Below, one piece after another: positions 4,962-44,540 of a stretch of 58,097 bases of DNA. The notes below the pieces were generated by a model, which was not told the origin of the DNA, did not search any database, and worked only from the letters and a program-made list of their open reading frames with translations. The stretch is from NCBI GenBank assembly GCA_022071965.1, contig JAJVIQ010000029.1, forward strand, positions 1 to 58,097, given 5' to 3'. Source of the DNA: Gammaproteobacteria bacterium (lineage in GTDB: Bacteria > Pseudomonadota > Gammaproteobacteria > JAJPIJ01). The position numbers were made by a program, and so were the translations under genes. Every line of letters begins with the position of its first letter. Within the stretch, counting starts at the first letter, position 1.

Positions 4962-5000
4962 CTCGCGCCCTCCTTTCTCTGGTCGAACAAGAAAAAAGTT

Positions 5001-5080
5001 TGCGAGCGCCGTTCCGAACACCAATGACGGGAATGCCCTGAGCCTGACGTCCGGTGGATCGCTGCAGCGCTCCTCAAGGC
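5001..5080 (-). promoter_or_regulatory. S-adenosylhomocysteine (SAH) riboswitch
   Basis: In the ahcY leader the minus strand reads CCTTGAG, GAGCGCTGC, a variable loop, CAGG, then CTCAGGG. The 7-base arms pair (one G-U) to form stem P1, with the conserved GAGCGCTGC and AGG inside. Downstream, ACGGCGCTC can pair with the GAGCGC of the loop, giving the pseudoknot characteristic of this class. The layout agrees with the Ralstonia SAH aptamer as I remember it. It ends about 40 bases before the ahcY start codon, immediately after a promoter. High SAH would be expected to raise ahcY expression. The match is by eye, not by covariance model. Confidence 0.9.
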
Positions 5081-5088
5081 AGGCCGCG

Positions 5089-22053: not shown

Positions 22054-22116
22054 AGGTCGGTGATCGATATTGGACGGCCGCGCGACGCCCAACTGCGGCG
22101 CGGAGTCAGTAAGAGA

Positions 22117-22304
22117 ATTCTCTGGGGTGTGCGTCAGCAGGCCGGGTATTCTTGAGCCTATACGTTACACCTGCCTGGAGTCGACCGAAAAACGGCGATG
22201 TTGAGCTATGCCGTCACGAGCGGAAAGCCTGATTCGCCCGGAACGACTCCAATCTTGAACCTGCGGTTCAAGTCGATGGTCGGCAACGGCATCCCGGAGA
22301 TCCA
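22117..22304 (+). ncRNA. ssrS: 6S RNA
   Basis: A roughly 188-base RNA that should bind the sigma-70 RNA polymerase holoenzyme in stationary phase. The ends pair: TTCTCTGGGGTG near 22118 with CATCCCGGAGA near 22290-22300. The 3' half contains TTGAACC-TGCG-GGTTCAAG and then CGGCATCCCGGAGAT, closely matching the corresponding block of Escherichia coli 6S RNA, and the central region has the large bubble expected. A run of six T follows at about 22306-22312, acting as terminator. It lies directly downstream of zapA, the conserved position of ssrS. Ends are estimated to within a few bases. Confidence 0.92.
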
Positions 22305-26531: not shown

Positions 26532-26606
26532 TGGCTGGGGCGCCAGGATTCGAACCTGGGAATGCCGGAATCAAAATCCGGTGCCTTACCACTTGGCGAC
26601 GCCCCA
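26532..26606 (-). tRNA. tRNA-Gln (UUG)
   Basis: The minus strand folds as a complete 75-base tRNA with an encoded CCA end. The acceptor stem is TGGGGCG paired with CGCCCCA, the anticodon loop is TTTTGAT with anticodon TTG, and the T arm contains GGTTCGAATCC. It begins with T, as enterobacterial tRNA-Gln genes do. It lies between ispE and prs, a conserved position in Gammaproteobacteria. Confidence 0.97.
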
Positions 26607-41850: not shown

Positions 41851-43323
41851 ATGAGACGCACTGCTCGCGTGCTCGCAATCCTCGGCGTCGCCGCCGCCTT
41901 CCTCGCCAGCGGCTGCGCCACCAACCCGGTCAGCAAACGCTCCGAGTTCGTCCTGATGTCCGAGGAACAGGAACTGGCCCTTGGTCGCCAGATGCACGCG
42001 GAGGTATTGCAGGAGTATGGGGAATACAAGGACCCGAAACTGCAGGCCTATGTCCAACAGGTCGGTGAGCGGGTGGCGGCGCTGAGCGACCGGCCCCAGC
42101 TCATCTACCGCTTCACGATCCTCGACAGCCCGGAGGTCAACGCCTTCGCGCTGCCCGGCGGCTACATCTATATCACCCGCGGGATCATGGCCTACTTCAA
42201 CTCGGAGGCTGAGTTGGCCGCGGTCCTCGGCCACGAAATCGGACACGTCACGGCGCGCCACGCCGTGCGCCAGTACACCGCCGCGCAGGCCACGGGAATA
42301 ATCGCGACCATCGGCTCCATTTTCGTGCCCGGGCTCGGCTCCTACGGTGGCAGCCAGCTCATCAATGTCCTGGGAACGGCGATGCTTCGCGGCTACGGGC
42401 GCGAACACGAACTGGAAGCCGACGGGCTGGGCGCGAAGTACATGGCCAAAGAAGGCTATGACCCGATGGCGATGCTCAACGTGCTCGGCACACTGAAAAA
42501 TCAGGAGATCCTCGAGAACCGGATCGCCAGGCAGGAGGGGCGCGAGCCGCGTGTCTACCACGGCGTGTTCTCCACCCACCCGGACAACGACACGCGCCTG
42601 CAGGAACTCGTCGGAGAGGCGCGGCAATTGCAGGCCGGCGGCGCCAAGCGGCTCGATCGCGAGCGCTACTACTCCTACATCGACGGCATGATCGTCGGCG
42701 ACAGTCCGCGCGAAGGGTTCGTGCGCGGCAATGCCTTTTACCACCCGGATCTCGGTTTCGGGCTGCACTTTCCCAAGGGGTGGAGCGTGAAGAATTACCC
42801 GGATCGCATCCTGTTCGTCGCCCCGGGCGGCAAGGCTATGATGCAGATGGGGGCGGAGGACCTGAACAAGCGCATGTCGCCGAAGCAATTCATGACGGAA
42901 AAGATGGGACTGAAAAAGCTGTCCTACGACGGGGCGATAAGCCCGGCAGGGCTCGACGGCTACACGGCGGTGGCGCCGGCACGTACCAGCAAAGGGACGC
43001 GCGAGGCGCGCTTCTCGGTCGTCTTCTTCGACAAGAAGGCCTATCTGTTCGCCGGGTTGGTTGACGCTGGCGGCAGTGTCGCCGTTTACGATAACGCCTT
43101 CCTCGATACCGTCAGTTCCTTTCATCCGCTGACGACGCGGGAGCGCGAATCGCTGAAGCCACTGCATCTGCGGATTACACCCGCCGCGCCCGGAGATTCG
43201 TTCGGAAGACTGGCAAGTCGTTCGCCCTATGAAACCAATGCCGAGGCGAGATTGCGTCTGCTCAACGGCTACTTCCGCGGTGGGGAGGTACCGGCCGGGG
43301 ACCTGATGAAGGTCGTCGAGTAG
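41851..43323 (+). CDS. M48-family metallopeptidase lipoprotein
   Basis: A 490-residue predicted outer-membrane or periplasmic lipoprotein protease related to BepA/LoiP. The signal ends in the lipobox LASGC, the zinc motif HEIGH lies near residue 128, and the third ligand is in REHELEADGLGAKYM. The C-terminal 200 residues have a separate beta-rich domain (GFGLHFPKGWSVKNYPDRILF in parts) seen in the long members of the family. The start at 41851 has GGGAG eight bases upstream; ATG at 41836, overlapping the previous stop, is the alternative. It likely degrades misfolded envelope proteins. Confidence 0.9.
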   Translation: MRRTARVLAILGVAAAFLASGCATNPVSKRSEFVLMSEEQELALGRQMHAEVLQEYGEYKDPKLQAYVQQVGERVAALSDRPQLIYRFTILDSPEVNAFALPGGYIYITRGIMAYFNSEAELAAVLGHEIGHVTARHAVRQYTAAQATGIIATIGSIFVPGLGSYGGSQLINVLGTAMLRGYGREHELEADGLGAKYMAKEGYDPMAMLNVLGTLKNQEILENRIARQEGREPRVYHGVFSTHPDNDTRLQELVGEARQLQAGGAKRLDRERYYSYIDGMIVGDSPREGFVRGNAFYHPDLGFGLHFPKGWSVKNYPDRILFVAPGGKAMMQMGAEDLNKRMSPKQFMTEKMGLKKLSYDGAISPAGLDGYTAVAPARTSKGTREARFSVVFFDKKAYLFAGLVDAGGSVAVYDNAFLDTVSSFHPLTTRERESLKPLHLRITPAAPGDSFGRLASRSPYETNAEARLRLLNGYFRGGEVPAGDLMKVVE

Positions 43324-43634
43324 AAGGCGTCGGACCACGCGCAGCAGCATCCGGCAGCGATGCACGGTCTTGACAATTCCCTGGCCGCAAGGATCTGTGG
43401 ATAACTCTGTTGAAATCCTGCAGCTATCGGGCTCGAGGCACTGCTGCGCCACGAGTTTTCTTGTTGCTGGCGAGATCATGGCACAATTTGTCATTAGAAA
43501 ACAACCACTTAAATTTTGAGCCCTCTACTCTTGCGAGGAATTTCGCTAACTCATTCTCCCACCAAGAGAATTTTCTCGATGTGCATAACTGGGCGGGAAG
43601 CGGAACTAACCCGACCCGCCCGGGTCTCATCTGG
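43324..43634. other. AT-richer intergenic stretch after the M48 gene
   Basis: No gene is convincing here; the 118-codon plus-strand frame at 43410-43766 has no domain-like sequence and no ribosome-binding site. The stretch is visibly richer in A+T than the genes around it. It contains a perfect DnaA-box sequence TGTGGATAA at 43396-43404 and an inverted repeat GGGCGGG/CCCGCCC at 43591-43597 and 43615-43621. The likely promoter of the RNA at 43635 should lie in it; TTGTCA at 43488 with an A+T-rich -10 near 43511 is a weak candidate. Confidence 0.5.
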
Positions 43635-43764
43635 CACGTTCCTCATGAACGTGTTCCGCTCAATATCCTCCCAGAGCGGAACGTAAGCCCGGTCTCCCCA
43701 GCCGGGCGGATTGGCCCCGGGACGAAAAAATTCCCCCTATGTGATTTCTCCCGGGGCCTTCTTT
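43635..43764 (+). ncRNA. Candidate small RNA with C-rich hairpin loops (sX13-like)
   Basis: Four consecutive hairpins lie between the M48 gene and cytochrome c4. H1 is CACGTTC/GAACGTG (43635-43653). H2 is TTCCGCTC/GAGCGGAA (43654-43681) with CCTCCC in its loop. H3 is GCCCGG/CCGGGC (43687-43707) with loop TCTCCCCAG. H4 is GGCCCCGGG/CCCGGGGCC (43713-43758) with CCCCC in its loop and TTCTTT after it, like a terminator. C-rich single-stranded loops on a GC-rich scaffold recall the Xanthomonas sRNA sX13, as I remember it, which acts on G-rich sites in mRNAs. In Pseudomonas the ErsA RNA lies by polA in the neighbourhood of cytochrome c4 and dsbA. Family membership and expression are inference. Confidence 0.6.
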
Positions 43765-43940
43765 AATTTCCTCACGTTCCGATTGCCGCGGCCTGTCGCC
43801 TCATTGACCTGACTCAAGCGCGGGCCCCGACCAGCGCGCCCAGCTCATCGTGGTCGGGGATCCGCATCCCAATACGCGGGCTCATGGTGTATGCTGCTGA
43901 TTCTAACGGCTACTCAACGAGAACACTCCGGAATTCCAGC

Positions 43941-44540
43941 ATGCATCGGTCTTTCCTCGCGTGGATTATTCTCCCGGCACTGGCAGTGAACCTTCCGGCG
44001 GCGAAGGCCCAAGGGGGCAGGGAAAAGGCGGCTGTCTGCGCCGCGTGTCACGGCGCCGACGGTAACAGCGCAAACGCCGAGTGGCCGAAGCTGGCGGCCC
44101 AGCACGCGAGCTACATCCGCTCGCAGCTTGCCGCGTTCAAGTCGGGCTCGCGGCAGAACGCGCTGATGAGCCCCATGGCAACCGGCCTGAGCGACGAGGA
44201 CATGAACCTGTTGGGCGAATTCTTCGCCAGCCAGAAGATCCAGCTCGGCACGGCGAAAAAGGAGTTGCTGGGCGCCGGACAGAAGATCTACCGTGGCGGC
44301 AATGCAGCGACTGGAGTTCCGGCATGCATGGCTTGCCATGGTCCGCGCGGGTCGGGAAACCCGGCGGCCGCGTATCCCGCCCTTCACGGGCAGCACGCCG
44401 TCTACACGGCGAACCAGCTGAAGGCCTACAAGAACGGCGACCGCACCACGGATGCCAATTCCGTCATGCGCACCATCGCCGGGCGTATGAGCAGCGCAGA
44501 GATCGAAGCGGTCGCCTCCTATCTGGAAGGCCTGCACTAG
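43941..44540 (+). CDS. Dihaem cytochrome c4
   Basis: A 199-residue periplasmic electron carrier with two CxxCH haem sites, CAACH (33-37) and CMACH in the second half, in two similar domains. A signal peptide precedes them (FLAWIILPALAVNLPAAKAQ). The start at 43941 gives this clean signal; 19 upstream in-frame codons are not needed. It probably passes electrons to a terminal oxidase. dsbA follows 123 bases downstream, the pairing seen in Pseudomonas. Confidence 0.95.
   Translation: MHRSFLAWIILPALAVNLPAAKAQGGREKAAVCAACHGADGNSANAEWPKLAAQHASYIRSQLAAFKSGSRQNALMSPMATGLSDEDMNLLGEFFASQKIQLGTAKKELLGAGQKIYRGGNAATGVPACMACHGPRGSGNPAAAYPALHGQHAVYTANQLKAYKNGDRTTDANSVMRTIAGRMSSAEIEAVASYLEGLH

Follow-up and report, generated by a model that had tools for sequence, protein, structure and literature searches.

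A four-hairpin RNA upstream of cytochrome c4

The window analyzed here is a 58,097-nucleotide stretch of gammaproteobacterial DNA (contig JAJVIQ010000029.1). Four adjacent hairpins with a U-rich tail after them occupy positions 43635-43758 of its + strand, as seen in the window sequence and its computed fold. On their 5' side is a Peptidase_M48 gene that ends at 43323; on their 3' side lies a gene for a two-domain cytochrome c4 (Pfam Cytochrom_C; 43941..44540, + strand), followed by genes for DsbA and a GGDEF protein (Pfam). The cytochrome c4 gene is also found 3' of the RNA in relatives and serves as our syntenic anchor; in the window, its match begins 172 nt from the RNA, on the same strand. 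A first-pass annotation of this DNA had described four back-to-back hairpins with a T-rich end between an M48 peptidase and cytochrome c4, and both the hairpins and their Pfam-assigned neighbors bear this out.

We place a putative small RNA gene of ~125-135 nt at 43635..43769 (+), a call that draws on fold stability and covariation. The minimum free energy of the RNA is -61.8 kcal/mol, as compared with -38.1 +/- 3.3 for dinucleotide-shuffled sequences (z -7.15; 0/200 shuffles as stable). The opposite strand folds as well (z -5.2); the U-tract, the promoter motif described below and the conserved C-rich loops all lie on the + strand.

All four hairpins are read from the + strand, and the modeled pairs of each covary in an alignment of 93 sequences. 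Hairpin 1 (43635..43653; CACGUUC-CUCAU-GAACGUG; 5/5 modeled pairs covary) carries a CUCAU loop that lacks a C run. Hairpin 2 (43654..43681; 8/8 pairs) has the stem UUCCGCUC/GAGCGGAA and the predicted loop AAUAUCCUCCCA, which contains CCUCCC and is anti-Shine-Dalgarno-like. Hairpin 3 (43687..43707; 7/7 pairs) has the stem GCCCGGU/GCCGGGC and a CUCCCCA loop, within which lies CUCCCC. Hairpin 4 (43713..43758; 8/8 modeled pairs) is a terminator stem, GGCCCCGGGA/UCCCGGGGCC, with CCCCC in its loop at 43733-43737. Three of the four loops are thus C-rich, as had been noticed at first reading. Directly 3' of hairpin 4 is TTCTTTAATTT; the U-rich tail UUCUUUAAUUU (43759..43769, +) completes an intrinsic terminator, and the U-tract is kept in relatives. 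Hairpin 4 was missed by a simple terminator scan, which allows loops of 3-8 bases; its own loop is longer.

Two other readings of the site were rejected. A 118-amino-acid open reading frame with a TTG start (43410-43766) overlaps the RNA, and it is unconserved: relative to the sister genome, its gaps do not come in multiples of three. A riboswitch was set aside since zero Rfam families score over threshold at the RNA site.

Stems covary while C-rich loops are kept

The window RNA is present in the sister genome at 89% identity, and part of it can be aligned at 78% identity in two genomes from another genus of the family. An initial model (R1), used as a search lead only, matched 67 of 369 class genomes. 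A covariance model built after alignment of 32 relatives with a revised stem register (R2) found a recognizable relative in 183 of the same 369 sampled genomes, about half. Searching a phylum-wide sample of 398 genomes with R2 yielded 19 matches, 18 of them in the class of the window RNA. The single match outside the class (G702) scores 34.6 bits and has AhpC rather than polA nearby; we treat it as chance rather than as a member.

Covarying stems, which the first-pass annotation had suggested looking for among relatives, are found throughout. Every one of the 28 modeled pairs shows two-sided changes (489 cells; 93 distinct sequences), and 93% of cells pair versus 31-52% when partners are slid, in an alignment that was fitted to the model's structure. 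When 17 relatives were aligned with plain MAFFT, with no structure supplied and hairpins 1 and 2 out of place, 77% of cells paired versus 31-55% in controls, and the covariation score was 0.211 versus 0.05-0.08 with partners slid. The structure-free signal is weaker than that of the structure-fitted alignment, and still positive.

The loops behave differently from the stems. CUCCC occurs in loop 2 of 81/93 sequences, versus ~19 expected from shuffled loops; for CCCC, the corresponding counts are 61/93 in loop 3 and 65/93 in loop 4, each versus ~18 expected. Loops that are kept while stems drift form the pattern that pairing with mRNAs would require. Judged by these comparisons, the window RNA is a real, conserved small RNA.

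Conserved synteny at the polA-engB-cytochrome c4 locus

The position of the RNA is conserved together with its structure. At least one of polA, engB and cytochrome c4 is present in the examined stretch for 82 of 90 RNAs. The usual arrangement among relatives has polA upstream on the same strand, then the RNA, a convergent engB downstream and finally cytochrome c4. In a Pseudomonas relative the order reads polA, ErsA, engB, cytochrome c4, DsbA, consistent with the first-pass statement that the ErsA small RNA (sRNA) lies near cytochrome c4 and dsbA.

The window lineage departs from this arrangement. Neither polA nor engB is adjacent to the window RNA; the RNA, cytochrome c4, DsbA and GGDEF genes are kept. 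Using the curated family TIGR03598, we detected no engB over cut-off in the window genome or three other family members (G000-G003), nor in one further genome (G176); in another (G123), engB is present 36 nt from the RNA. The window lineage has lost engB, and its RNA sits directly next to cytochrome c4. Because this lineage keeps the RNA without engB, the RNA has been retained though its usual neighbors have left.

The number of copies also varies. One genome carries four tandem RNA copies between polA and engB (L157; G173:C33:13144-13901), and 2-4 copies occur in several others. No plasmid copies were found.

A putative sigmaE-type promoter precedes the RNA

Just 5' of the window RNA is the pair GGAACT-N16-GTCTCA, conserved in 4/4 family genomes. 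Its putative -35 element, GGAACT (43602..43607, +), falls in an aligned GAACT[TA] shared by the four genomes, and its -10 element, GTCTCA (43624..43629, +), was identified by alignment and motif scan. This pair matches the sigmaE/AlgU consensus pattern. A strict sigmaE-type motif lies upstream of 39/83 relatives, versus 0.38% of windows drawn at random from those loci, and each of the four tandem copies described above has its own such motif, GGAAC...GGTCTGACC. The window genome encodes an RpoE ortholog (294 bits; cut-off 236). Transcription would be expected to start at ~43635-43637.

Relationship to named sRNA families

None of the Rfam families reaches its cut-off on the window RNA. The only sub-threshold match of note is to anti-hemB (RF02837; Burkholderia RNA 7, or ncS04 of B. 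cenocepacia), at 26.7 of 49.5 bits (E 2.8e-4), a family unnamed in the first-pass annotation; whole genomes of the window family give RF02837 matches at E 1.3e-5 and 9.6e-5. The window RNA aligns over its full length to RF02837 positions 1-81, with the CUCCC hairpin, the second hairpin and the terminator hairpin in order. The two differ in that the Rfam model comprises 3 hairpins over 81 positions; the window RNA adds a further hairpin at its 5' end and carries CCCCC in the loop of its terminator hairpin. They also share a locus: anti-hemB members in our sample lie beside engB and cytochrome c4, and the window RNA lies beside the latter. Matches to R1 and R2 in Rhodocyclaceae (L101) and Amantichitinum (L082) are anti-hemB over the Rfam cut-off: at the exact places of the window-family model matches, the anti-hemB model scores 76.6 bits in L101 and 65.5 bits in L082. 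The window RNA shows the features of the superfamily defined below, namely covariation across four hairpins and C motifs in the second to fourth loops, but was itself in the R2 training set; independent support for its placement comes from the RF02837 match.

The first-pass annotation had likened the RNA to sX13 of Xanthomonas, and its author proposed a search with models of sX13, ErsA and Spot 42. Those three Rfam models leave the window RNA unmatched even at E=10; moreover, the sX13 model (RF02232, gathering score 50 bits) has no match in the entire window genome, and the RNA falls below the gathering scores of ErsA (RF01719, 50 bits) and of Betaproteobacteria toxic sRNA (RF02278; 18.0 bits, gathering 50). 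The likeness itself fares better. R2, trained on a set free of Rfam-called sX13 and ErsA loci, scores 32.8, 32.6 and 28.4 bits at three sX13 loci and 30.3 bits at ErsA, in each case at the known position. The annotation was correct about the object itself and, in broad terms, about the kind of RNA it is.

Both sX13 (Xanthomonadaceae) and the window RNA display C runs in apical loops on stable stems; sX13 consists of stem-loops with CCCC, CCCC and CCCCC loops and lies downstream of polA (PMC3771888). The window RNA differs in having an M48 peptidase gene upstream in place of an adjacent polA, and sX13 differs in its promoter region, since our scan found no match to the sigmaE-type motif 5' of three Xanthomonas-type sX13 genes. 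ErsA resembles the window RNA in its cytochrome c4-DsbA-GGDEF flank and sigmaE-type promoter motif; it is sigma22-dependent (PMC6321483, PMC8575079) and sits in the polA-engB gap (PMC8575079), whereas polA and engB are not adjacent to the window RNA. The published structure of ErsA, a pair of stem-loops with a U-rich linker (PMC8575079), makes it the weakest link among these families; its middle hairpins align poorly to R2.

We define here a polA-engB-cytochrome c4 superfamily of sRNAs in gammaproteobacteria (including betaproteobacteria), of which anti-hemB and sX13 appear to be members and ErsA a probable divergent member. The anti-hemB, sX13 and ErsA models converge with R2 on shared loci: L160 is a common target of the anti-hemB, sX13 and ar14 models; the L157 tandem array is matched by anti-hemB, sX13, ar14 and ErsA, with the ErsA model matching a copy also matched by anti-hemB; and the closest relative outside the family (L017) is matched by both sX13 (E 0.0014) and anti-hemB. 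The search outputs assign no clan to any of these Rfam families. Separately, the alphaproteobacterial ar14 and Atu_C7 give sub-threshold matches (E 0.0005-0.005) on L160, L157 and L153.

Unrelated C-loop sRNAs could instead have arisen separately between polA and engB, with the shared scores reflecting C-rich loops and GC-rich terminators. C-rich-loop sRNAs do exist in unrelated bacteria (PMC3771888), R2 gives sX13 and ErsA modest scores of 28-33 bits, and Spot 42 occupies the same gap at only 14.6 bits. We nonetheless consider convergence unlikely. Scores form a continuum from 36 to 107 bits through the intermediates matched by several family models, orientation and promoter motif being shared, and in 80 cytochrome c4 loci nearly all matches above 25 bits sit at the syntenic position.

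Two further sRNAs invite comparison. Spot 42, encoded by E. coli spf, regulates sugar metabolism in an Hfq-dependent manner (PMC3771888). It shares the polA-engB gap with the relatives of the window RNA and is the top R2 match in the 12-kb E. coli polA region (L197 7915-8012; E 0.007); we do not claim homology, its score being too weak. RF02278, with Bordetella S17, has CU-rich loops complementary to ribosome-binding sites and a terminator hairpin (PMC5688073, PMC11722255), as the window RNA does, but only two hairpins.

A proposed envelope-stress regulator

In our favored interpretation, which we regard as likely, the window RNA is a free-standing, trans-acting sRNA of this superfamily that is induced by envelope stress and whose C-rich loops pair with G-rich ribosome-binding sites. 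Under envelope stress, RpoE would start its transcription at ~43635, and hairpin 4 would end it. The CCUCCC, CUCCCC and CCCCC loops could then pair with G-rich ribosome-binding sites and block translation, by analogy with sX13 and with ErsA acting on algC. sX13 represses mRNAs with G motifs independently of Hfq. Its repression needs both its C-rich loops and G-rich motifs near target start codons (PMC3771888), and ErsA base-pairs at the ribosome-binding site of algC (PMC6321483). A crude scan of ribosome-binding sites for 43 window ORFs showed no excess over permuted loops, a result that is uninformative because the longest-ORF gene calls were unreliable in this GC-rich DNA.

A role in titrating an RNA-binding protein, rather than in pairing with mRNAs, strikes us as improbable. 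Repeated loops of a single type, along with tandem copies, do recall sponge RNAs, yet the loops differ from one another while all complement G-rich or Shine-Dalgarno-like sequence, and sX13 requires its own C motifs together with G motifs in the mRNA (PMC3771888). We also rejected a role in cis, as leader or attenuator of the cytochrome c4 gene, as very improbable: the window RNA does lie ~170 nt upstream of that gene on the same strand, but an opposite-strand engB intervenes in most relatives and a terminator closes the RNA. Least credible of all is that the hairpins are clustered terminators or inverted repeats with no regulatory role, a reading that would suit the intergenic position and the terminator at the end but not the conserved loops with covarying stems, the conserved promoter motif or the persistence of the RNA where polA and engB are no longer neighbors.

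For the free-standing sRNA that we prefer, a common origin is a reasonable proposal that we hold with less assurance: anti-hemB, sX13, ErsA and the window RNA may all descend from one sigmaE-type-controlled envelope-stress sRNA located between polA and engB in the gammaproteobacterial (including betaproteobacterial) ancestor, with Spot 42 and ar14/Atu_C7 perhaps as further branches. The authors of the sX13 study regarded that RNA as confined to Xanthomonadaceae and asked whether other polA loci encode sRNAs that act alike (PMC3771888). In the open-access literature that we searched, anti-hemB, sX13 and ErsA are not described as one polA-locus family with a sigmaE-type promoter, and linking them into a superfamily appears to be new. 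If correct, three families investigated separately, one in a lung pathogen, one in a plant pathogen and one in Burkholderia, would represent one regulator, and targets and mechanism would become transferable and testable across the three. In this superfamily the envelope-stress response would then have an sRNA arm, much like that formed by RybB and MicA in enterobacteria.

Other RNAs in the window genome

A second RNA with similar loops (CCCCTCCCCTCCCT and CTCCCCA) lies elsewhere in the window genome, flanked by parC and an M48 (htpX-like) gene (G000:C15:53430-53563, - strand; L168/L183). It scores 25.7 bits with R2 (E 0.004) and is 92% conserved in the sister genome; we did not find it in the family's other genus. 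Within the window, three other RNAs score over Rfam thresholds: a 6S RNA (22116-22304, +), an SAH riboswitch (4997-5081, -) and a tRNA (26535-26606, -).
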